Shown: piece by piece, positions 21,995 through 33,994 of the stretch
How positions within the stretch are numbered: the first letter of the stretch is position 1
Layout of the letters: each line of letters opens with the position of its first letter
Assembly: GCA_030649165.1 (NCBI GenBank)
Contig: JAUSGG010000060.1
Location: forward strand, 1 to 52,059
DNA from: Armatimonadota bacterium
Lineage (GTDB): Bacteria; Armatimonadota; UBA5829; JAUSEB01
DNA length: 52,059 nt
Reading direction: 5' to 3'
Made by a program: the position numbers and the translations under genes
Notes under the pieces: generated by a model
Told to the model about the DNA's origin: nothing
Seen by the model: only the letters and a program-made list of their open reading frames with translations
Databases searched by the model: none

Positions 21995-22789
21995 CTATCT
22001 TGTGCCAGCCTTCAGGGAGCGGGCGAAATCGCCGACGCGCGTGATCAGGTCGGAGTCGGTCCCGTTGCGGGCAACCATATCCACGAGCGCGCTGCCGACG
22101 ACCGCTCCGTCCGCAAGCGCGCAAACCTGACGCACGTGCTCCGGGCTCGACACCCCGAAGCCGACTACAACGGGCTTGTCAGTGACCGCGCGAATCGCCG
22201 GTAACATGTTTTGCAGTTCCATTGACAAGTCCTTCTGAGCGCCTGTCACCCCAGTCCGAGATACACAATATATGAACCCTGTGGCCGCGGCGGCCACCAA
22301 ATCGATCCGCGGGGGAGGACTGGTCGGAGCCAACAGGAAGATGCTGTCTATTCCGCGGCGATCGGTCAGATCCTTCCATTCGCCCGCCTCCTCCGGCGGC
22401 ATATCGGTCATTATCACCCCGTCCACGCCTGCGTCGCGCGCGTCGTCCGCGAACCGCTCCAGGCCGTAACGCTGAGCGGGGTTCAGATAAGTCATCAGGA
22501 CAATCGGAAGCTCCGAAGTGCGCCGGATTTGCGAAACCAGGTCCAGGACCTTCCGAATGGTCACCCCCTGCATCAAAGCCCGCTGAGAGGACGCCTGGAT
22601 GCTGGGTCCGTCCGCAAGCGGATCGCTGAACGGGACGCCGAGTTCCAGAATGTCAACCCCCGCTCTCTCCAGCTCCAGCGCAAGCTTTCCGGTCGTCTCG
22701 ATATCGGGATCGCCGGTGGTCAGGAAACAGACCAGGGCTTTCTCCGATCTCGCCGCCAACTCCGCAAATCGTTCCCCTATCCGGCTCAC
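21995..22789 (-). CDS. trpA: Tryptophan synthase alpha chain
   Basis: A 264-residue TIM-barrel subunit that cleaves indole-3-glycerol phosphate to indole and glyceraldehyde 3-phosphate and passes indole to TrpB. Motifs include [10 protein letters not shown], the catalytic-Glu region [17 protein letters not shown], the loop Asp context [14 protein letters not shown], and the phosphate-binding [11 protein letters not shown]. The start is GTG 22789, sharing GTGA with the trpB stop, so translation is coupled to its partner subunit. It is the last biosynthetic gene of the operon. Confidence 0.95.
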
Positions 22790-23988
22790 AAGGCCACCTC
22801 CATGCGCTTCGAGACTACTTCGACGTCCTTGTCCCCTCTGCCGGACAGGTTTACTATTACCACCTCATTCTTACCCATCTGGGGAGCAATCTTCGTTGTG
22901 TACGCCAGAGCGTGTGATGATTCCAGCGCCGGGATTATTCCTTCGCGTCTCGAAAGGGTCTGGAAAGCAGCGAGCGCCTCGTCATCCGTCACCGCAACGT
23001 ACTCCGCCCGGCCCGATTCCTTGAAGTGACTGTGCTCCGGTCCTACGCCGGGATAGTCGAGCCCGGCTGAGATCGAGTGTGTTTCTTTTACCTGCCCATT
23101 CTCGTCCTGCAGTAAATAGCTGGCCGATCCGTGCAGCACCCCATAGCTGCCGGCGACGAGCGTGGCGGAGTGTTTGCCGGAGTCCAGACCGAAGCCGGCC
23201 GCTTCGACTCCGGTAAACGCCACGGGATCGTTCAAGAACGGGTAGAAGAGACCCATCGCGTTGCTGCCTCCGCCCACGCAGGCAATCAGACGGTCGGGGA
23301 GCCGGCCTTCGGCCTCCAAAATCTGCCGCCGGGCCTCGACGCCGATTACCGATTGAAAATCCCGCACCAGCATCGGATAAGGATGAGGGCCGGCGACAGA
23401 CCCGATGATGTAGTGCGTAGTGCGGACGTTCGTAACCCAATCGCGGATCGCCTCGTTCATCGCGTCTTTCAGAGTGCGGGTCCCGCTCGTGACCGAGTGG
23501 ACCTCCGAGCCGAGGAGCCTCATCCGGAACACGTTGAGCGCCTGCCGGTGGGTATCCTCCTCGCCCATGTAGATTTCGCAGTGGAAGCCGAAGAGAGCAC
23601 AGGCCGTCGCGGCGGCGACACCGTGCTGGCCGGCCCCGGTCTCGGCGATGATCCGTTTCTTGCCCATCCGCTTGGCCAGAAGGATTTGCCCCATCACGTT
23701 GTTCAGCTTATGCGCGCCGGTGTGGCAGAGGTCCTCGCGCTTCAGGTAGATCTTCGCGCCGCCGAGCGATTCGGTCAGATGCTGCGCGAAATACAGAGGT
23801 GTGGGCCTGCCGACGTACTGATCGAGGTAGTAATCGAGCTCCTGTCGAAACGCCGGGTCGGCTTTCGCCCTCTCGTATTCCGCGGTCAGCTCATCCAAGG
23901 CCGGAATGAGCGTCTCCGGCACGTATCGCCCTCCGAAACGGCCAAAATGGCCTCGTTCGTCAGGCAGTTTGATCAGCTTTTCTGACAT
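22786..23988 (-). CDS. trpB: Tryptophan synthase beta chain
   Basis: A 400-residue PLP enzyme that condenses indole with serine. Visible are [13 protein letters not shown], the PLP lysine in [14 protein letters not shown], the catalytic Glu in AETGAGQHG, the phosphate loop [10 protein letters not shown] and the C-terminal [13 protein letters not shown] 23988 is preferred (GGAG about 10 nt upstream) over TTG 23994, and it overlaps the end of trpF by about 29 nt. It is of the standard TrpB1 type, paired with TrpA immediately downstream. Confidence 0.96.
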
Positions 23989-24589
23989 TCTCAATGAACT
24001 CCTTTATCTTGTTGTGGTCCTTCTTCCCAGGCGAGGACTCGACGCCGCTGGACACATCGACGGCGTAGGGCCTGACCAGCGCGACCGCTTCTCCAACGTT
24101 CTCGGGGGTCACGCCGCCGGACAGGATGAGCGGTTTGCCGTACTCTTTGGCCTTCAGCGCAAGCTCCCAATCAAACCTCTTGCCGGTGCCGCCCATAGCC
24201 TCTTTGGAGAACGTGTCCAGAAGATAAGCGTCAGCGGCGGGGTAGGTCTTGAGCGCCGCCAGGCTGTCCTGGTCCTTTACTCTCAGGACCCTGATGATCC
24301 GCATATAGGGGGCCAGACATTGAGCGAACAGGTCGCTCTGCTCGCCGTGAAGCTGCGCCGTATCCAACCCGCAATCCGTGGCGGTCTGGAGCGCGCCGGG
24401 GTCCGCGTTGACGAAAACGCCCACCCTGCTGACAAATGGCGGCAGAGCGTCGGCAATGCGCTTCGCCGTCGCGGCGTCCACCCGCCGTGGGCTGGGCGCG
24501 AAGACGAAACCTACCGCGTCCGCCCCGCATTCCACCGCGGCGATCGCATCCTCTATACTGGTAATCCCGCAAATCTTGACTCTTGTCAT
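23960..24589 (-). CDS. trpF: Phosphoribosylanthranilate isomerase
   Basis: A 209-residue TIM barrel that performs the Amadori rearrangement of phosphoribosylanthranilate. The catalytic Cys is in VKICGIT at the N-terminus and the catalytic Asp in [27 protein letters not shown] and [10 protein letters not shown] are family signatures. It starts within the trpC stop (ATGA-type overlap) and overlaps trpB at its 3' end. Confidence 0.95.
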
Positions 24590-25374
24590 CCGATCAGCTC
24601 CCTCAGCTTGGCTCCAATGTCCTCCGCGCGCATCAGCGACTCCCCAACCAGGATTGCGTGCGTTCCCACGCGAGAGAGAAAATCCACATCAGCGCGCGAA
24701 TGCACGCCGCTTTCGCTCACGATGACCCGGTCGCAAGGCGCCATTCGCGCAAGCCTGGCCGTTGTGTTGATGTCCACCTGGAACGTCCTGAGGTCCCGGT
24801 TGTTGACGCCTATCACCTTCGCGCCTACCGCAAGCGCGGTCTCCATCTCGGGCTCGTCGTGAACCTCCACCAGGCAGCTCAACCCCAGCCCGCCGGCCGT
24901 GTCGAGGAAAGAGCGCAACACGCCCTCCGGGAGAATGGCGGCGATCAGCAATATCGCGTCCGCGCCGGCTGCTCTGCTCTGGTAGATTTGGTATTCGTCG
25001 ATGATGAAGTCCTTGCGCAGGATGGGCAGGCCGACCGCCGACTTTACGTCGGTCAGATAGCTCAATGCGCCCTGAAAGAACTTTTGGTCCGTCAGGACGG
25101 AGATCGCGGACGCGCCGTTGGCCTCGAACGCGCGCGCTATTTCGACGGGCCGGAAGTCCTCTCTGATCACTCCCTTGGACGGCGACGCTTTCTTGGCCTC
25201 GGCGATGATACGCATCCCGGAGCCGGTCCGCCTGACTGCGCCGGCGAAATCCCGGATAGCCGGCGCGTCCGCCAGCGCGGCCTTCACTTCGGCCGGCGGA
25301 ACGGCTTCCTTCTGCCTGTCCACTTCCGCGCGCTTGAATTGTGTAATCTCGTCCAATATCAACTCGGATTGCAC
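24586..25374 (-). CDS. trpC: Indole-3-glycerol phosphate synthase
   Basis: A 262-residue TIM barrel that closes the indole ring. Signatures are IIAEAKKASPSKGVI, ISVLTDQKFFQG, LPILRKDFIIDEYQIYQS, GVNNRDLRTFQVD and VSESGVHSRADV. It is monofunctional, not fused to TrpF. It overlaps the 3' end of trpD by 16 nt and the 5' end of trpF by 4 nt. Confidence 0.95.
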   Translation of the reverse strand: MQSELILDEITQFKRAEVDRQKEAVPPAEVKAALADAPAIRDFAGAVRRTGSGMRIIAEAKKASPSKGVIREDFRPVEIARAFEANGASAISVLTDQKFFQGALSYLTDVKSAVGLPILRKDFIIDEYQIYQSRAAGADAILLIAAILPEGVLRSFLDTAGGLGLSCLVEVHDEPEMETALAVGAKVIGVNNRDLRTFQVDINTTARLARMAPCDRVIVSESGVHSRADVDFLSRVGTHAILVGESLMRAEDIGAKLRELIG

Positions 25375-26384
25375 TCCCGCGTAAAAGCTTTCAGATTCTC
25401 CAGGGCTGCGAGTGCGGCGCCGGAATCGATCGTTTCCGCCGCCAGGCGGATTCCGTCGCGCAAATCCTGGGACCGTCCGCCGACCATCAGCGCCGCCGCG
25501 GCATTCAAACAGACTATATCACGTCTCGGCCCTTTTGCGCCCTCCAGCACGCTCGTCAAGATACGCGCGCAGTCGTCGATCGAGTCGCCCCCCGCTATGG
25601 AATCGGCAGACGCGCGGGCAATCCCGGTGTCTTCCGGCTCGATCTGATAGCTTCGCACAACCCCATCGCGCAGTTCGCTGATCTTCGTAGGCCCGATAGT
25701 GGATATTTCGTCCAGACCGTCCAGACCGTGCACCACCATCGCCCGCCGCGACCCCAGGTTCTTGAGCACGTTCGCCATCGGCTCGCAAAGGTCCGGTGAG
25801 AAGACGCCGATGACCTGCAGCTTCGCGCCCGCGGGATTGGTCATCGGGCCAAGGATGTTGAACACAGTGCGGACGCCGATCTCCTTTCGCGGGCCTACCG
25901 CGTGTTTCATAGCCGGATGCATAGAGGGAGCGAACATAAAACCGATGTTGACGGTGTCAATGCACCGCCCGATCTCCTCCGCGCTCAGCGCAAGTTTCAC
26001 GCCAAGAGCCTCCAGCACGTCGGCGCTTCCGCAGTTGCTCGAAGCGGCCCGGTTGCCGTGTTTGGCTATGGGAACGCCGGCCCCCGCGGCGACCAAAGCG
26101 GCCGCCGTCGAGATGTTGAACGTGTCCAGCTTGTCACCGCCCGTGCCGCACGTGTCGAGCGCGCCGTCCCGGGAAGTGGTGATCTTGACCGCTTTCTCGC
26201 GCATTACCCTGACGAAACCGGTGATCTCATCGACCGTTTCGCCTTTCATCCTCATGGCCGTTATCAGGCAGGCTACCTGCGCGGGGGTCGCTTCGCCGTC
26301 CATTATCTCAGTCATAGCCTGGCTTGCCTCTTCCTGGGTCAAGTGCCGGCAGTCTATCACTTTGCGAATTGCTTCTTTGATCAT
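25359..26384 (-). CDS. trpD: Anthranilate phosphoribosyltransferase
   Basis: A 341-residue enzyme that joins anthranilate and PRPP. The PRPP loop DTCGTGGDKLDTFNIST, the KHGNRAASSNCGSADVLEALG segment and HPAMKHAVGPRKEIGVRTVFN are characteristic. GGAGG precedes ATG 26384. It is separate from TrpG; the 128-nt gap from trpG holds a palindromic repeat, the largest gap among the structural genes. Confidence 0.95.
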   Translation of the reverse strand: MIKEAIRKVIDCRHLTQEEASQAMTEIMDGEATPAQVACLITAMRMKGETVDEITGFVRVMREKAVKITTSRDGALDTCGTGGDKLDTFNISTAAALVAAGAGVPIAKHGNRAASSNCGSADVLEALGVKLALSAEEIGRCIDTVNIGFMFAPSMHPAMKHAVGPRKEIGVRTVFNILGPMTNPAGAKLQVIGVFSPDLCEPMANVLKNLGSRRAMVVHGLDGLDEISTIGPTKISELRDGVVRSYQIEPEDTGIARASADSIAGGDSIDDCARILTSVLEGAKGPRRDIVCLNAAAALMVGGRSQDLRDGIRLAAETIDSGAALAALENLKAFTRECNPS

Positions 26385-26441
26385 ATATATTCGCCTCCGT
26401 TGTTCGTTACCGAGTGGCGGGTGGATTGCACGAGATGACTT

Positions 26442-26481
26442 CCACCCTCACCCTCTCCCTCTCCCTCAGAGGGAGAGGGGA
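26442..26481. repeat. CACCCTCACCCTCTCCCT palindrome between trpG and trpD
   Basis: A CCACCCTCACCCTCTCCCTC arm followed by a CAGAGGGAGAGGGG arm. It is the same family as at about 17669 and 49787. Being inside the operon, it could form a hairpin that tunes mRNA stability or the level of the distal trp genes. Confidence 0.6.
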
Positions 26482-26512
26482 TTACAACAGTTGTTGGTTA
26501 TCTGATCCGCGG

Positions 26513-27076
26513 TCATCCGTTTGCGAAATTCCGCAGCAAGTCCTTTCCAACTCCTGTCAGGATCGATTCGGGGTGGAATTGCACTCCTTCCACGGGGTGA
26601 GTTTTGTGCCTTACGCCCATTACCTCGCCTTTATCCGTCTCGGCCGTTATTTCGAGGCAATCCGGCATACTCTCCCGCCGGATGATGAGAGAGTGGTACC
26701 TCGTCGCTTCGAACGGGTTGGGAAGACCACGGAACACGCCGGCGCCGTCATGGGAGATCATCGACGTTTTGCCGTGCATGAGGCGGTCGGCCCGCACGAC
26801 CTCGCCGCCGTAGGCTTCTCCGATGCACTGGTGGCCAAGACATACGCCAAGAATTGGAATTCCGCCGCCGAACCGCCGGACCAGCTCGACGGATATTCCT
26901 GCTTGTGCGGGCGTGCACGGGCCGGGGGAGATGACGATCCGGTCCGGCTTCATCTCGGCAATCTGGTCCAGCGTTATCTTGTCGTTACGGAATACGTTGA
27001 GCTCCTGCCCCATTTCACCAAGATATTGCACGAGGTTATAGGTGAAGCTATCGTAGTTGTCTATCATAAGAATCAT
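26513..27076 (-). CDS. trpG: Anthranilate synthase component II (glutamine amidotransferase)
   Basis: A 187-residue class I amidotransferase that supplies ammonia from glutamine to TrpE. The oxyanion SPGPCTP, the catalytic Cys79 in [12 protein letters not shown] and the His-Glu pair in QFHPESI are intact. GGAGGG lies before ATG 27076. It may also serve 4-amino-4-deoxychorismate synthase, as in species with a single amidotransferase, but no pabB is in the window. Confidence 0.94.
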
Positions 27077-27130: not shown

Positions 27131-28618
27131 CTAGTCCAGCCCCGTTTCGGCAAGCTCGAGGGCGCGGAGCATTGCTCCGGCCTTATTCATGGTTTCATAG
27201 TATTCGTTCTCCGGGACGGAATCGGCCACTATGCCGGCGCCGGCCTGGACGTACGCTGTACCTTTGTTTATAAGAATCGTGCGAATAGTTATACAGGTGT
27301 CCATGTCGCCGGAGAAGCTAAAATAGCCTATGGCTCCGGCGTAGGTCCCGCGTTTCGTCGGTTCAAGCTCTTCGATGATCTCCATCGCTCTGATCTTGGG
27401 AGCGCCGGAAACCGTGCCCGCGGGGAAGGTCGCGCGCAAAACGTCGAACTGGTTCTTGTCCGGCATAAGCCGCCCGTGGACGTTTGAGACTATGTGCATC
27501 ACGTGCGAGTATCGCTCGATGACCATCAGCTCGTTCGCGTGCACGCTGCCATAGCGGCAGACGCGGCCGATGTCGTTGCGGCCGAGGTCAACGAGCATGA
27601 TGTGCTCCGCCCGTTCCTTCTCGTCGGCTAGAAGCTCCTCCTCCAATGCCTTGTCCTCGGCCTCGGTTTTTCCGCGGGGCCTCGTGCCGGCAATCGGGCG
27701 GACCCGAACATTGCCCTGCTCCTCCGTGACGAGGATTTCCGGGGAGGAACCGATCAGTTTAACGTCGCCATAGGACAGATAGTACATATACGGAGAGGGA
27801 TTGACCGAGCGGAGGGCGCGGTAGACATCGAACGGATCCGCCGAGACAGGCGCCGAGAGTCGCTGCGAAAGGACGATCTGAATGGCGTCTCCGGCGGCGA
27901 CATACTCCTTGCAGGCCAGTACGGCTTCCTCGAACTCGCTCTTGGTGAAGTTAGACGTCACCGGCTTGGGACTTGCCGGGCCGGCGTCGCGCTCCCCCTT
28001 GCGTTCGGCGGCGCCGTTTTTCAAGCGCATAACCAGCTCATCTATCTTGCAAACCGCCTCGTCGTACGCGTCGCCCGGATCACCGTTCACGTGCGCATTG
28101 CACAAGACCTTTATTTTGTGCTTCACGTGGTCAAAAACGAGCAGCGCATCGGTTATCAAGAATACGCAGTCGTCGAGGTTCAGGTCGTCCTCAGTCAGAT
28201 CGGGAAGAGATTCGAAAAACCTGACCATATCGTAGCCGATGTAGCCGACCGCTCCGCCGCAGAACCTCGGCAGTTCCGGGTCAGGAACGTATCGGTATTG
28301 CGCGAGAAGCTGTTCGAGCACGTGGAGAGGATCCTGCGAATCCTTCAGTTCCAGTCTCGTTACGCCGTTGATCTCGACCGTTCGGCCCTTGCTGCGCATA
28401 ATGACCGACGCGCCGCTGCCCAGGAACGAGTAGCGGGCCATCCTCTCTCCGCCCTCCACGCTCTCCAGAAGGAAGGTATAGTCGGAGTCGGCGATCTTCT
28501 TGAATGCTGAGACAGGCGTTTCCATGTCCGCCAGTATCTCGCGATAGACCGGGACCAGGTTCCCCTGTTTCGCCCGTTTGATGAACTCCTGTTTGTCCGG
28601 GCAGTTCACCGATGTCAT
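27131..28618 (-). CDS. trpE: Anthranilate synthase component I
   Basis: A 495-residue chorismate-utilising enzyme, the first committed step to tryptophan. The feedback (tryptophan) site motif LLESVEGGERMARYSF is conserved at about 50-65, so allosteric inhibition is expected. The catalytic part shows SPYMYYLSYGDVKLIGSSPE, RPIAGTRPRGKT, DLGRNDIGRVC and FPAGTVSGAPKIRAMEIIEELE. ATG 28618 is preceded by AGGAGGTGAAAG, an optimal site. It is the first structural gene after the attenuator leader; trpG follows 54 nt on. Confidence 0.96.
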   Translation of the reverse strand: MTSVNCPDKQEFIKRAKQGNLVPVYREILADMETPVSAFKKIADSDYTFLLESVEGGERMARYSFLGSGASVIMRSKGRTVEINGVTRLELKDSQDPLHVLEQLLAQYRYVPDPELPRFCGGAVGYIGYDMVRFFESLPDLTEDDLNLDDCVFLITDALLVFDHVKHKIKVLCNAHVNGDPGDAYDEAVCKIDELVMRLKNGAAERKGERDAGPASPKPVTSNFTKSEFEEAVLACKEYVAAGDAIQIVLSQRLSAPVSADPFDVYRALRSVNPSPYMYYLSYGDVKLIGSSPEILVTEEQGNVRVRPIAGTRPRGKTEAEDKALEEELLADEKERAEHIMLVDLGRNDIGRVCRYGSVHANELMVIERYSHVMHIVSNVHGRLMPDKNQFDVLRATFPAGTVSGAPKIRAMEIIEELEPTKRGTYAGAIGYFSFSGDMDTCITIRTILINKGTAYVQAGAGIVADSVPENEYYETMNKAGAMLRALELAETGLD

Positions 28619-28639
28619 CTTTCACCTCCTAAGCTCTTC

Positions 28640-28746
28640 GCGTGAGGTTAAAGCCTCACGCTGCCTTTGTCTAAGCAAGCTACGGATATTTGCGGACGGC
28701 CTGCTTCTCAAATGCAGAAGGCCGCGAAGCAACTGCGTCCGCGGCC
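28640..28746 (-). other. Distal part of the trp leader, two further hairpins
   Basis: Past the attenuator the leader folds again: GGCCGCG...CGCGGCC (arms 28740-28746 and 28720-28726) and an 8-bp stem GCGTGAGG-6-CCTCACGC (28640-28661) ending about 20 nt before the trpE ribosome binding site. On the plus strand the first hairpin is followed by TTTTT, so it could also stop antisense reads. Confidence 0.5.
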
Positions 28747-28761
28747 TTTTTCAGCCTGAAA

Positions 28762-28797
28762 ATCAAAAAACGCGGAGCGCTCCTGTGGAGCGTCCGC
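28762..28797 (-). terminator. Rho-independent attenuator terminator of the trp operon
   Basis: On the minus strand GCGGACGCTCC-ACA-GGAGCGCTCCGC (one bulged C) is followed by TTTTTT (28770-28765) and more Ts. It lies about 165 nt after the predicted transcription start and 145 nt before trpE. Its 5' arm can pair alternatively with leader positions 28855-28846. Confidence 0.85.
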
Positions 28798-28873
28798 GGC
28801 TGTTATTACCCGATTGTCATCTTGCGCTAACGCGCTAAGACGGCCGACGCTCCACTAATATTGGAGTGTCGCC
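28785..28873 (-). promoter_or_regulatory. Mutually exclusive trp leader hairpins (regions 1:2 versus 2:3)
   Basis: Region 1 (about 28873-28862, GGCGACACTCCA, starting at the second Trp codon) can pair with region 2 (about 28855-28842, GTGGAGCGTCGGCC). The first ten bases of region 2 are perfectly complementary to region 3 (28794-28785, GACGCTCCAC), the 5' arm of the terminator. A ribosome stalled at the Trp codons would cover region 1 and favour 2:3, an antiterminator; a ribosome moving on through region 2 would free region 3 for the terminator. Pairings were checked by hand only. Confidence 0.75.
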
Positions 28874-28922
28874 ACGCCCAGCTTGACTTGCCACCTGTGA
28901 TCGGTGAGTAGTCGTATCGCAT
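28827..28922 (-). CDS. trpL: trp operon leader peptide with Trp-Ala-Trp control codons
   Basis: A 31-codon open frame beginning ATG 28922 (MRYDYSPITGGKSSWAWRHS...) and ending TAG at 28829-28827. TGG codons at positions 15 and 17 (28880-28878 and 28874-28872) are the control codons. AAGGA lies about 10 nt before the ATG, and the predicted transcript starts only about 14 nt before it, so the mRNA begins almost at its ribosome binding site. The coding region overlaps regions 1 and 2 of the leader hairpins and ends before the terminator, as expected for ribosome-mediated attenuation. It is longer than the classic 14-residue enteric TrpL. The peptide is too short for similarity tests, but promoter, site, codons and structures agree. 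Confidence 0.8.
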   Translation of the reverse strand: MRYDYSPITGGKSSWAWRHSNISGASAVLAR

Positions 28923-28942
28923 TAGAGCCTATCCTTAGGGGC

Positions 28943-28971
28943 AGTATACCCATAGATTGTAGGATTGTCAA
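28943..28971 (-). promoter_or_regulatory. Near-consensus promoter of the trp operon
   Basis: On the minus strand TTGACA (28971-28966), exactly 17 bp, TATACT (28948-28943). The predicted start is about 28936. No operator palindrome is evident over it, so attenuation may be the main control. Confidence 0.8.
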
Positions 28972-29178
28972 TAGGACGTAAGGAGGAGGGATTTGCGTTG
29001 GCGACCGCTGAGGCTGGTCTGAGACGCAAGTTAGTATGCCGGTTGGGCCCGGTTTTCGGCGCTCTTGGCGCTGAAAGGAATGTTTTCGCTCCTAAGCAGC
29101 TCAGAAACCGTGGTTTTGGCGCGGCGAAACGCAAGCCCGCCTGGGTGTTTACGGTTCTCGCCCCGTTCGCTTCTTCAG

Positions 29179-29689
29179 CTAGGCCGCCAGCCTAACTATG
29201 CGTCTCAGATCCTTCCATCGCTCCTTCTTTGCCATCCCAAGCGCCGCGCCAACCATAACCAGAAGGCTGAACGTTGCATTCACCGTTATCTTCCCGATCC
29301 CACGAACATACTGCTCATCGAGCTGCAGGTGTTCTTTAAGCCTGCTGTTTACTCTCTCTACCGCTGTCCGTCTCCTATACAGCCGCGCGAACTTTTTGGT
29401 CTGTCTCGCCAGCCCAGGCCAGCGACGCTCGTCTTCGGATATTGCTATCTTCAGCACGCGGCCGTAGGTGGAGTCGCTGCACGGTCCACCCCTTAGCTCC
29501 TTGTGCTTCGGACACCGGAACTTCAGATACTTCCCGTCTCTGCCGGCGTAGATCATGAAATGACCGCAAGAGCATATCGGAGTCCCCAGCCCAACTTCAT
29601 CTTTTCTCCTCCAAAGTATTGTGCGCACTCTGTTGTGGCGTCTGCTGCCCGCTTGGTGTAGAAGTACTGTGAACTGCTGAATCTCTATC
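29179..29689 (-). mobile_element. Truncated DDE transposase (IS1182-like C-terminal part)
   Basis: About 170 residues matching the C-terminal half of IS1182-type DDE transposases: a Cys-containing zinc-ribbon-like segment (ICSCGHFMIY, then FRCPKH), RRTAVERVNSRLKEHLQL with the catalytic Glu, and VRGIGKITVNATFSLLVMVGAALGMA. The N-terminal half with the first catalytic Asp residues is missing, so it is a dead remnant. The open frame reaches 29721; ATG 29689 is the nearest internal start, next to a run of about nine C (around 29700). Terminal inverted repeats and target duplications were not found. It ends about 210 nt upstream of the trp promoter. Confidence 0.75.
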
Positions 29690-29721
29690 ATTATGTACCC
29701 CCCCCCAAACAAAATTGTCAA

Positions 29722-30237: not shown

Positions 30238-32484
30238 CTACAACCTGACGAGCAGACTCCCCATCTCCCCCGCCTTCACCTTGCCTTCCACAATCACAAC
30301 TCTGGATTTGAAGAATGAACCGGCGGAAACCTTGCCTTTGTACGGCTTTCCGTCCAGCAGAATCTCCTTTTCCCCCTTCCCTTCCGGCAGTATCGTCTGG
30401 TAGCTGACGGTCACCGGATGGGAGTTGTGGTTGGTGACTTCGAGCGTTGCCGACGATTCCTCCCGCTTGTATGACGCCGTGAACGAGCCTTCGCCCAGGC
30501 GGAAGCGCTCCCAGGTGAAGTCGCTCGACGGGCTGAATGGGCGGAATTCGAGCGCGCGGGAGGGGGCGTCGTAGCGCAGGCCAAGGAACTGGGAGATGAA
30601 AAGGCAACTGAACACGCCCGACGCCCAGCCGCATTTGCCGAGCCCGCGGGCCGGCTGGTCGTTGATCCGGTAGGTCGTTTTCCACTGGGTAAATGGCCAC
30701 CACCAGATGCTTCCGTCGAGATCAGTGAGCTTGCGTATCTTCGTCAGATAGCCGTCCACGCCGCTCATACTCTCCGCGTCGCTTGTCGCGGCCAGGCCGG
30801 AGACGTACCCGGGGAACGTGGTCCCGTAGCTGTTGGGGTCGGCCCAGACGATGCCGCCGAGGGTCTTCATGTAGAGTATGTTGTGCTCACTGAGCGCGAA
30901 CTTCTTGAGGTTGTGCAGCGCGGGATCGTCGTAAGTCGTGTAGCCGTAGAATGAAGCCAGTGTCGTGTCGCTTTCCTCCCCGTCGTGGGCCATGTAAGGA
31001 ACCGGGGCGGGATAATCGACGCCTTTGACGGCCACGTGCTTGAGGGGCAGATTGCCGTCCTCGTTGATGCCCTCCACGTACTGTTTGCCGAATGGACCGT
31101 CGATGATATTGTGCGCGATAAGCTCCTTCTTGATCTTCTCCGCCGCGCCGCGGTAGGCGGACGCTGTCTTGGTGTCGGCGTAGATATCCTCAAGAATGCG
31201 GGCGAAGGAGTTGAGGCAATAGTATGCGAAGATATTCGATCCAGTGTGATAGTCGCCCGCCGAGCCGCCGTCGGAGATGAACCGGCTGGCGAGCAGGAAC
31301 GCCTTCTCCCTTCGCAAACTGAGCGCTCCGTCAAGAAGCGCCCTGCACTTCTTCGCCACCTCCGGATGGTCGAGGAAAAACTGCTTGTCCGCGGTGGTGG
31401 AATAGTAGATCCCGGCCATCGAGACGGGCGCCAGCGAGTTGCTGATGGAGTGGTCGATCCCGCCGGGGAACCTGCCCTTGTACCTCACGCTCCATTTGAG
31501 GAACCAGAGGATGCCGCGCCGGGCCAATTCAGGATCCAGCATGACCAGAGGGAGATATGAATAGTGGAAATCCTTCATCCACATCTCGTCTCTCAGCGGG
31601 TAAGAACCCCAACTGTTTTCGCCCGCGATCTCGCCATTTGCGGCCATGACGGTCGCGTTGAAACACTGGTGGACACACCGCTCCAGGAACTCGCCTGCGT
31701 AAACGTCCTGGGGCATATCCAGCTTGCCGGTCAGACTTCGGAAATAGGTAAGGGTTGCGCGGAGCCATTCGAGGCTGCTCTGCCTGGAAAGAACGTTGAG
31801 GGCTTCTTGAGCGGGAACGGCGGCGAGAATCAACGGCAGCCAGAACGACTTGCCAGGCCTGATCTCATACTGCATCTCGGGTTTTGCCTCGATACCGTCG
31901 GCCGCCATCACGGTGATTCTTTCGCTGCTTTCTAGCGAGTAGACCACACCTTTGATCTTCTCTCCCGACACGTTTTTGATGAAAAGCCCGTAGATCGCGG
32001 CGCCGGGCCTCTCCGAACCGTCCGCGGAGATCGGAGCAAAGGCAATAAGCTTGACCGCGGCTCGTTCGTCGACAAAGAACTCGGTAATGGGCAAAACATT
32101 GCCCAGCAGGGAGGTTTTGTAATCCCCGACGAGCTGCTTCAGGTCGTAGGTCTTGTCGCCAATCTTGAGGCGGAACGAAAGGTCTTTGGTCTGATGGTAA
32201 TGCTTCTGCGTCCAGACGCCGGGAAAGGGGTGGTCATAGGGATAAGTCTCTCCATACGATATGAAGTTGAGAATCGTGCCCTTCAGGTCGAGGTTCATCA
32301 GGATTCGGTTGTTGCCGATATCGAAGGTCAGGTCCTCGTCCAAGCGTTTGCCGAACAAGCTGACCTTATCACCGTAATCGAGGACGCCGTTGCGAATTGA
32401 TGCCCAGAACATCCGCCCGCACTCGCCGGCGAGGGCTTCTTCGACGGTCTTGAACGAGAAATGTGCAACAGGTTGTTTGTTCAA
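30238..32484 (-). CDS. Six-hairpin glycosidase-like protein, probably cytoplasmic
   Basis: A 748-residue protein without a signal peptide. An N-terminal beta-sandwich (about 1-260) precedes an (alpha/alpha)6-type catalytic region (about 265-640: AGENSWGSYPLRDEMWMKDFHYSYLPLVMLD, FPGGIDHSISNS, AHDGEESDTTLASFYGY, DGSIWWWPF) and a C-terminal beta domain (about 650-748). This layout is that of inverting glycosidases or phosphorylases of the GH15/GH65/GH94/GH125 type; the exact family is not clear. Candidate acids are the Asp/Glu in RDEMWMKD and DGEESD. The start follows a weak AGGGAGG-like site (gap to the sulfatase about 115 nt). It is probably transcribed after the sulfatase and acts on an oligosaccharide. 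Confidence 0.72.
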   Translation of the reverse strand: MNKQPVAHFSFKTVEEALAGECGRMFWASIRNGVLDYGDKVSLFGKRLDEDLTFDIGNNRILMNLDLKGTILNFISYGETYPYDHPFPGVWTQKHYHQTKDLSFRLKIGDKTYDLKQLVGDYKTSLLGNVLPITEFFVDERAAVKLIAFAPISADGSERPGAAIYGLFIKNVSGEKIKGVVYSLESSERITVMAADGIEAKPEMQYEIRPGKSFWLPLILAAVPAQEALNVLSRQSSLEWLRATLTYFRSLTGKLDMPQDVYAGEFLERCVHQCFNATVMAANGEIAGENSWGSYPLRDEMWMKDFHYSYLPLVMLDPELARRGILWFLKWSVRYKGRFPGGIDHSISNSLAPVSMAGIYYSTTADKQFFLDHPEVAKKCRALLDGALSLRREKAFLLASRFISDGGSAGDYHTGSNIFAYYCLNSFARILEDIYADTKTASAYRGAAEKIKKELIAHNIIDGPFGKQYVEGINEDGNLPLKHVAVKGVDYPAPVPYMAHDGEESDTTLASFYGYTTYDDPALHNLKKFALSEHNILYMKTLGGIVWADPNSYGTTFPGYVSGLAATSDAESMSGVDGYLTKIRKLTDLDGSIWWWPFTQWKTTYRINDQPARGLGKCGWASGVFSCLFISQFLGLRYDAPSRALEFRPFSPSSDFTWERFRLGEGSFTASYKREESSATLEVTNHNSHPVTVSYQTILPEGKGEKEILLDGKPYKGKVSAGSFFKSRVVIVEGKVKAGEMGSLLVRL

Positions 32485-32599: not shown

Positions 32600-33994
32600 T
32601 TAGAAGGACTCAGGTGAGCCGCCGAGCCCGGCCTCCGCGGGGAGGCCCTTCATGAACGATGCTATCTTGGCCTGCAGGTCGGCAATGATATCCGGATGGT
32701 CCTTCGCCACGTCCCGCTTTTCGCCGATATCCAGGTCCAGATCGTACAGCTCCGGCTTGGCCAGGGTTTCCGTGCCCCGGCCCACGTGCATCTTCCAGCG
32801 GCCAAAACGGACTGCCTGAAGGTAAGACGTCCTTAAGTAGAAGAACGGGTATTCCTCCATGTTCCGACCGGGAACAGTGAACAAGGGCCTTATGTCCCGC
32901 CCGTCGATCGGACGGTCCGCCGGGACCGAGCCACCCGCGAGCGTCACGCAGGTTGTAAAGAGGTCCATGTTGCTTGCCGGCTCATGGCAGACGTGGCCGG
33001 CGGGTATTCGGCCCGGCCAGCGCGCAACGAGAGGCACGCGCATACCGCCCTCGAAAACCATCGTCTTTCCGCCGCGCAGACACCCGGCGGAGCCGCCGTT
33101 CGGGCCATTGTCGCTGGTGAACATCACGAGGGTGTTGCGCTCCAAGCCCAAATCCTTCAAAGTCTTCAGAATCTCGCCGACGCCCCAGTCAATCTCCTGC
33201 ACCGCGTCGCCGTAGAGCTTGCCTTTTGAACTTCCTCTGAAGCGTTCGGAAGCGTGGACGGGATTGTGCGGCATGTTATGCGCGAGATAAAGGAAGAACG
33301 GGCCATTTCTGTGTTCGCGGATGAACCTGATGGACTCCTCGGTGTAACGGAGAGTGAGAGTGTCCTGGTCCACTGGGGCTTCGATGACGTCTTCTCCGCG
33401 CATGAGCGGACATCCATCCGGCCCGTTTTTCCATCCGCCCATGTTGTTGCTGTATGGAATGCCATACCAGCAGTCGAAGCCGTGCCGCATCGGAAGGAAT
33501 CGAGGTTCGTGACCCAGATGCCATTTGCCTATAATCGCCGTAGCGTACCCGCGCTGTTTCAGCGCCTCGCCGAGGGTTATCTCGTCATCGTTGATGCCGG
33601 TGCGGTGGCCCGGGCCGAGTACTCTCGTCAGCCCTGACCGTATCGGATAGCGCCCGGTGAGCAATCCGGCCCTGGATGGCGTGCACACGGGCGCGCAGGA
33701 GTGGAAATCGGAGAACTTGACGCCGGTTCGCGCCATTGCGTCTACGTTCGGCGTTGCTATCTTCTTCGAGCCGTAGCAGCTCAGGTCGCCGTATCCGAGG
33801 TCATCGCAGTTGATCAGCACAATGTTCGGGGGCCGTTTGCCGCCCGCGCCGAGCGCTTCACCGCCAAGGATCGAGACGGCGGCAACGGCCGTTGCCGAGC
33901 GTTTGAGGAACTCTCGCCTTGGCATCGCCCGAGAGTTAGAAGCTGAAAGATCGGATGTGCCAAACCGCCTGGAGTGTTCCGAGGGTTTCTCCAT
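32600..33994 (-). CDS. Tat-exported type I sulfatase
   Basis: A 464-residue sulfatase of the formylglycine class. The N-terminus has a Tat signal: RREFLKR (26-32) followed by an Ala-rich hydrophobic stretch. Metal ligands lie in NIVLINCDDLGYGD, and the modification motif is C104-T-P-S-R with AGLLTGR, so C104 should become formylglycine; later come GKWHLGH, FLYLAHNMPHNP and the second Asp pair FTSDNGPNGG. It hydrolyses sulfate esters, likely on a carbohydrate given its neighbours, outside the cytoplasmic membrane. AAAGGAGG directly precedes ATG 33994, so the long start is right. The modifying enzyme is not in the window. It is divergent from the esterase gene at 34135. Confidence 0.92.
   Translation of the reverse strand: MEKPSEHSRRFGTSDLSASNSRAMPRREFLKRSATAVAAVSILGGEALGAGGKRPPNIVLINCDDLGYGDLSCYGSKKIATPNVDAMARTGVKFSDFHSCAPVCTPSRAGLLTGRYPIRSGLTRVLGPGHRTGINDDEITLGEALKQRGYATAIIGKWHLGHEPRFLPMRHGFDCWYGIPYSNNMGGWKNGPDGCPLMRGEDVIEAPVDQDTLTLRYTEESIRFIREHRNGPFFLYLAHNMPHNPVHASERFRGSSKGKLYGDAVQEIDWGVGEILKTLKDLGLERNTLVMFTSDNGPNGGSAGCLRGGKTMVFEGGMRVPLVARWPGRIPAGHVCHEPASNMDLFTTCVTLAGGSVPADRPIDGRDIRPLFTVPGRNMEEYPFFYLRTSYLQAVRFGRWKMHVGRGTETLAKPELYDLDLDIGEKRDVAKDHPDIIADLQAKIASFMKGLPAEAGLGGSPESF

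Follow-up and report, generated by a model that had tools for sequence, protein, structure and literature searches.

The trpL leader of E. coli (RF00513) encodes a peptide of 14 codons with two adjacent Trp codons, its RNA can adopt the alternative pairings 1:2, 2:3 and 3:4, the last being a terminator with a U-tract, and it governs the whole trp operon. The attenuator of the his operon is built from segments A to F, which form a chain of alternative pairings with one terminator. Leader peptides with Trp codons have also been described in Streptomyces, where they are located 5' of trpE and, as separate units, 5' of trpS (PMC1262725, PMC8079986), and two hairpins after the leader were reported for S. 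lividans (PMC1262725, PMC8079986). Leader-peptide RNAs that are leaderless are found both in Streptomyces (PMC8079986) and in Sinorhizobium meliloti (PMC7298713). In the latter species trpL/rnTrpL mediates ribosome-dependent attenuation of trpE from a leaderless frame of 14 codons with W10 and W12 (PMC7298713). The literature that we found places leader-peptide attenuation in the Proteobacteria and Actinobacteria and sporadically in the Firmicutes, in the form of hisS and hisZ leader peptides that were described when none was known beyond the former two phyla (PMC2965389).

The stretch of DNA analyzed here (the window, 52,059 nucleotides) comes from a member of the Armatimonadota. Indeed, the nearest TrpE sequences belong to this phylum, with identities of 83% for a genome from the same family and 71-75% for genomes from the same order and class. 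The leader 5' of trpE in the window very probably acts as a ribosome-mediated transcription attenuator, by which the supply of charged tRNA-Trp governs trpEGDCFBA. The mechanism is thus a classical one, and it is found here in a phylum (Armatimonadetes/Armatimonadota) for which no earlier report of a leader peptide or attenuator was found among the open-licence papers. All results presented here rest on sequence from metagenome-assembled genomes, that of the window (G000) being 99% complete.

The attenuator precedes the complete tryptophan pathway on the minus strand: trpE, the first gene of the controlled operon (27131-28618; TIGR00564, 593.6 bits), is followed by trpG, trpD, trpC, trpF, trpB and trpA in that order (21995-27076; NCBIfam matches). 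All elements named in the original prediction were recovered at the positions that it gave. The leader starts with a sigma-70-type promoter (28943-28971), in which the -35 hexamer TTGACA (28971-28966) is separated by a 17-nt spacer from the -10 hexamer TATACT (28948-28943); 11 of 12 positions match, shuffled sequences yield a mean of 0.4, and relatives have a promoter of this type at the corresponding position. The leader RNA is predicted to start at about 28936. A Shine-Dalgarno-like AAGGA (28932-28936) lies 9 nt 5' of the ATG (28922) of a frame of 31 codons, MRYDYSPITGGKSSWAWRHSNISGASAVLAR, which closes with the stop codon TAG at 28829-28827 (frame 28827-28922) and has homologs in relatives of the same order. 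It contains the presumed regulatory codons TGG GCG TGG (28872-28880), with Trp15 at 28880-28878 and Trp17 at 28874-28872.

Region 1 overlaps and trails the Trp codons and region 2 is contained within the leader frame, the two forming a 1:2 hairpin (28838-28879) of -21.4 kcal/mol. The core of region 2, GTGGAGCGTC (28846-28855), is the exact reverse complement of the core of region 3, GACGCTCCAC (28785-28794), so that the perfect 10-of-10 match claimed earlier for 2:3 stands. Regions 3 and 4 form an intrinsic terminator ahead of trpE (T1; CGCGGACGCTCCACAGGAGCGCTCCGCG-TTTTTT, 28765-28798; -20.5 kcal/mol) that consists of a hairpin at 28798-28771 and a tract of six T at 28770-28765. The folding of the leader beats that of 200 out of 200 dinucleotide shuffles (z -3.6). 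The extent of the leader is the point on which the original prediction has to be amended, as a second hairpin (5:6, T2; 28718-28748) follows the terminator and makes the leader longer. In the window T2 ends in TTCTGCATTT and lacks a good U-tract.

The resemblance to the trp attenuator of E. coli is clear: two Trp codons in the leader, alternative 1:2, 2:3 and 3:4 pairings, a terminator with a U-tract and control of the whole operon. It differs in having 31 codons rather than 14, W-A-W in place of W-W, a stop codon after region 2 and a second hairpin downstream, in the lack of a TrpR above cut-off in the genome and in the lack of a match to RF00513. The W-x-W spacing is shared with trpL of S. 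meliloti; unlike that leader, the one in the window has a short 5' UTR with AAGGA, and no function in trans is known for it. Features shared with the actinobacterial attenuators are the presence of leaders 5' of both trpE and trpS, the probably leaderless RNAs in many Armatimonadota relatives and the two hairpins, whereas the much longer peptide, the sharing of one leader by trpS and trpE in six relatives and the phylum itself are different. Like the hisS and hisZ leaders, the Armatimonadota leaders represent leader-peptide attenuation outside the Proteobacteria and Actinobacteria, yet those concern histidine, translation genes and another phylum.

Since tryptophan can be sensed in other ways, we considered whether a T-box, TRAP or TrpR acts on the leader. 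T-boxes are in fact widespread among the Armatimonadota (151 of 291 genomes), where they coexist with leader-peptide attenuators. However, neither the window nor the rest of its genome contains a match to the T-box family RF00230 (strict filters), TRAP (PF02081) is found in 0 of 291 phylum genomes with a positive B. subtilis control, and TrpR scores above the cut-off in 0 of 291. All three were rejected for the window genome, and it is hardly conceivable that one of them acts on this leader. The Rfam collection has no family that matches the leader: Trp_leader (RF00513) had no match at the gathering score in the window and none at E values up to 10 in 28600-29000. On the complementary strand RF02424 gave a weak match (20.2 bits versus a cut-off of 70), which was far below threshold and was discarded.

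A comparison of the regions upstream of trpE showed that the leader is not confined to a single genome. We examined about 130 Armatimonadota loci, of which 116 remained after removal of near-duplicates, for ATG-initiated frames of 8-45 codons with Trp-Trp or Trp-x-Trp. Such small Trp-rich frames are present 5' of trpE in 43 of the 116 loci on the sense strand and in 2 of the 116 on the antisense strand, whereas dinucleotide shuffles give 2.7 +/- 1.6 loci, with a maximum of 6. The same count on the same loci revealed no comparable excess for frames rich in Cys, Met, His, Phe, Tyr, Gln or Asn. Some of the 43 matches are probably false (L137 and perhaps L168), which agrees with the 2-3 that chance alone would yield. 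Examples are MQRKIFLITGGKSSWVWRNSNLSGALAMLAR in L090, which belongs to the same family as the window genome, MCYSAFRSKTKWVWRGSSISGAPPSACV in L091, MNTASYLIIHGGEYTWGWRHFNMSGAAASARIK in L092, MRLYNASLGLWWWREGDRSRRCRRPHTPAR in L121 and MQTRELRTGLGYWWWRWNP in L147. At most of the positive loci a hairpin starts at or beside the Trp codons and is followed by a GC-rich terminator. Among the loci that have no leader at trpE, six have one 5' of trpS, while others have a leader at neither gene.

At least 20 of the 45 families that were sampled contain positive loci, which shows that attenuation is an established form of trp regulation in the phylum, and probably the main one. The suggestion that leader-peptide control of trp would be extended if the host were to come from a poorly cultured phylum, as the Armatimonadota are, has thus turned out to be real. 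Moreover, L090 and the other leader-bearing relatives in the order have retained the frame, W-x-W, the 2:3 complementarity and the terminator, contrary to the loss of the frame and of both hairpins in relatives that would have refuted the original prediction. The same comparison refines a second point of that prediction: a stop codon after region 2 and two non-adjacent Trp codons, which it rightly described, are not peculiar to the window genome but normal in the order.

In the trpE loci that were searched outside the Armatimonadota, convincing leaders were seen only in L069 and L079, and perhaps in L017. The first two, in records named Desulfobacteria and Deltaproteobacteria, have WSWWW and WWWW leaders, each followed by two similar terminators. 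In L002/L101 the region 5' of trpE contains a promoter and then hairpins and a terminator without a Trp leader frame, which is possibly another kind of attenuator.

Hairpins arise in any GC-rich intergenic region, and those of the window could in principle constitute a constitutive terminator or an RNA stabilizer, next to a small frame that occurs by chance and is not translated. The excess of Trp frames on the sense strand (43 versus 2 antisense and 2.7 shuffled) already argues against a chance frame, and so does the conservation of its codons. Across 12 codon-aligned leaders neither TGG codon varies, and L091 and L098 possess both as well, which brings the order to 14 leaders in all. The pN/pS ratio is 0.53 before the Trp codons and 0.33 over an L-I-I-x-G-G motif (0.28 in the dereplicated set). 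On the basis of these values below 1 we infer that the leader frame is translated.

The conservation of base pairing points in the same direction. In an alignment of the 14 order-level leaders (A2), with gapless, hand-chosen arms 2, 3-inner, 3-outer, 4, 5 and 6, helices 2:3, 3:4 and 5:6 have 94.9% of their cells paired, compared to 90.3% in shuffles and 35-51% in slid versions. Two-sided changes affect 8 pairs and 19 cells in these helices (4.5 and 7.2 in shuffles) and the covariation score was reached by 0 of 500 shuffles, counts that are indicative as close relatives were counted separately and the shuffle does not control for relatedness. In the trpS-linked leaders, for instance, helix 2:3 shows the changes A-U to G-C and C-G to U-A. 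Because 2:3 excludes both 1:2 and 3:4, its covariation supports the switch itself and not just the terminator. The alignment of relatives that had been proposed as a check therefore agrees with the original prediction, in that 2:3 and 3:4 covary and both TGG codons are conserved. Compensatory changes in a mutually exclusive helix are not to be expected of a constitutive terminator, which would moreover be purposeless ahead of the sole trp operon. Considering the Trp excess, the covariation and the codon conservation together, the chance frame was ruled out and the entire explanation by constitutive hairpins is very improbable.

The motif before the Trp codons merits separate consideration. I-[ITVL]-x-G-G (leader codons 7-12) is kept through synonymous changes and is found in L089, L090, L092, L094, L095, L099, L100, L106, L108 and L113. 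Retention of the amino acids in I-[IT]-x-G-G, at a pN/pS of 0.28-0.33, is what one could expect if the released leader RNA or peptide additionally acted in trans, as rnTrpL/peTrpL does in S. meliloti (PMC7298713). Nevertheless, the alignment is short, the motif is absent from L105 and L107, no target is known and constraints on the RNA could yield the same pattern, which makes such an additional role improbable.

The attenuator reading was also supported by folding, in which the ribosome was modelled as a masked footprint of 31 nt and the window leader was folded through T1. Without a ribosome the 3:4 pairing has a probability of 0.66 and 2:3 of about 0, and with a ribosome at the stop codon these values are 0.68 and about 0. 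A ribosome at Trp17, which covers region 1, reverses the outcome (2:3 0.66, 3:4 0.00), whereas a ribosome at Trp15 only gives a mixed result (0.32 versus 0.36). The folding that had been suggested for the window thus bears out the anticipated change from terminator to antiterminator in silico, brought about by placing the ribosome at Trp17. The relatives usually have 3:4 as the favored pairing at equilibrium. When their transcripts are made to end before region 4, 2:3 forms in most of them mainly with a ribosome at a Trp codon, as in L092 (0.00 free, 0.87 stalled, 0.01 at the stop) and L113 (0.00 free, 0.93-0.99 stalled, 0.00 at the stop); L091 and L106 respond at the second Trp codon only. 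This behavior fits the requirement of kinetic attenuation. In the window, in L090 and largely in L105, 2:3 is favored before region 4 even without a ribosome, which calls for the assumption, a kinetic one, that 1:2 closes first there and stays closed.

The proposed course of events is as follows. RNA polymerase would start near 28936 and a ribosome would begin the leader peptide of 31 codons. When Trp-tRNA is scarce, the ribosome is expected to wait at Trp15 and above all at Trp17, thereby covering region 1, upon which 2:3 would pair, the 3:4 terminator would be blocked and the operon would be transcribed. When Trp-tRNA is ample, the ribosome would reach the stop codon beyond region 2 and 1:2 would close behind it or after its release; region 3 would then be free for region 4 and transcription would stop at about 28765.

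The role of the second hairpin is less clear-cut. It is located 3' of T1 in each of the 14 order relatives, where it covaries, and it is found in several more distant leaders too. In most of the order relatives T2 carries a U-tract, and depending on the species the U-tract is on T1, on T2 or on both. In L106 and L113, for instance, it is on T2 alone, while T1 of L091 has a weak tail; the window is the reverse of L106 and L113, with six T on T1. A terminator that is situated between the attenuator and trpE needs a control of its own, most simply provided by a relay like that of the his attenuator, in which region 4, freed by the 2:3 pairing, pairs with region 5. A ribosome at the Trp codons would then lead to 2:3 and 4:5, and otherwise 1:2, 3:4 and 5:6 would form with termination at T1, T2 or both. 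The function of terminator would have shifted between the hairpins within the order, with the window having kept T1 while its T2 decayed.

The evidence on this relay is divided. It is in line with the constant presence and covariation of the second hairpin, and with L106 and L113, where T1 has no U-tract and T2 alone can terminate. In addition, in 13 of 14 leaders whose transcript ends before region 6, 4:5 forms with region 3 sequestered (0.58-0.98) and for the most part fails to form in the other states (0-0.4), and native 4:5 pairs score better than swapped ones (p 0.0004). However, the 4:5 covariation does not go beyond that of shuffles, and the pairing 3:6, which would be useless, scores about equally and also beats swapping, so that neither covariation nor arm swapping provided proof of the relay. 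The hairpins may resemble each other simply as a result of duplication, the equilibrium in 12 of 14 leaders favors 5:6 once region 6 has been made, and T2 of the window has no good U-tract. On balance we consider a relay of the his type plausible, at somewhat less than even chances. The leaders would share with the his attenuator a possible chain of pairings over six segments, and would differ from it in having two candidate terminators, with a U-tract that varies by species, and a 4:5 pairing that is hypothetical.

Variation is also seen in the genes that are controlled. In six order relatives (L094, L098, L105, L106, L107 and L113) trpE follows trpS and the same leader is found 5' of trpS. 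The trpS gene of L094 was identified with TIGR00233 (287 bits versus a cut-off of 177), and the other five were recognized from their equivalent location and from one or the other terminus of the protein. Judged from this gene order, a single attenuator appears to control both tRNA charging and tryptophan synthesis in these relatives. The window genome has two trpS genes of its own, the first covered by only about 240 nt upstream, and no Trp-rich frame was found near either, so that a second Trp leader at these genes was rejected.

Taken together, the trp attenuator of the order may be a six-segment relay with two terminators, in which a ribosome at the Trp codons disarms T1 and T2 via 2:3 and 4:5, termination has passed between species from hairpin T2 to hairpin T1, with the window at the T1 end, and the module has moved before trpS to give one leader for charging and synthesis. 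We put this combined view forward tentatively, with a little less confidence than the relay as such.

The 5' ends of the leaders differ as well. Among 23 loci whose promoter is good, 11 have the leader ATG 8-10 nt 3' of the -10 hexamer, in most cases precisely 9 nt, which means that transcription should start at the ATG or no more than a few nt away from it. Thus, about half of the Armatimonadota leaders with a good promoter are likely leaderless. An ATG at 9 nt past the -10 hexamer is seen in L090, L092, L095, L099, L121, L136, L150, L171 and others. The window leader is not among the putatively leaderless ones, its gap between the -10 hexamer and the ATG being 20 nt, with the AAGGA, compared to the 9 nt of many relatives. 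The order-level leaders thereby form a natural series in which the 5' UTR, the position of the terminator and the controlled gene (trpE or trpS-trpE) vary while the Trp codons are fixed. With leaders in hand for this phylum, the age and spread of ribosome-mediated attenuation become questions that can be answered by phylogeny.

The surroundings of the attenuator contain some further elements. Just 5' of the ribosome-binding site of trpE, at 28640-28661, lies a perfect palindromic hairpin, GCGTGAGG-CTTTAA-CCTCACGC, for which 17 sites are present in its own genome at no more than one mismatch, several with the same loop, compared to 6 per strand for a control pattern at up to 2 mismatches; it is an interspersed REP-like repeat, which the original prediction did not mention. 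Just 5' of the trp promoter, at 29179-29721, a remnant of a transposase DDE domain (PF13751, PF01609) is found. Finally, a protein of 748 amino acids without a Pfam match at E 0.001 is encoded at 30238-32484, where it adjoins a sulfatase (32600-33994, PF00884).
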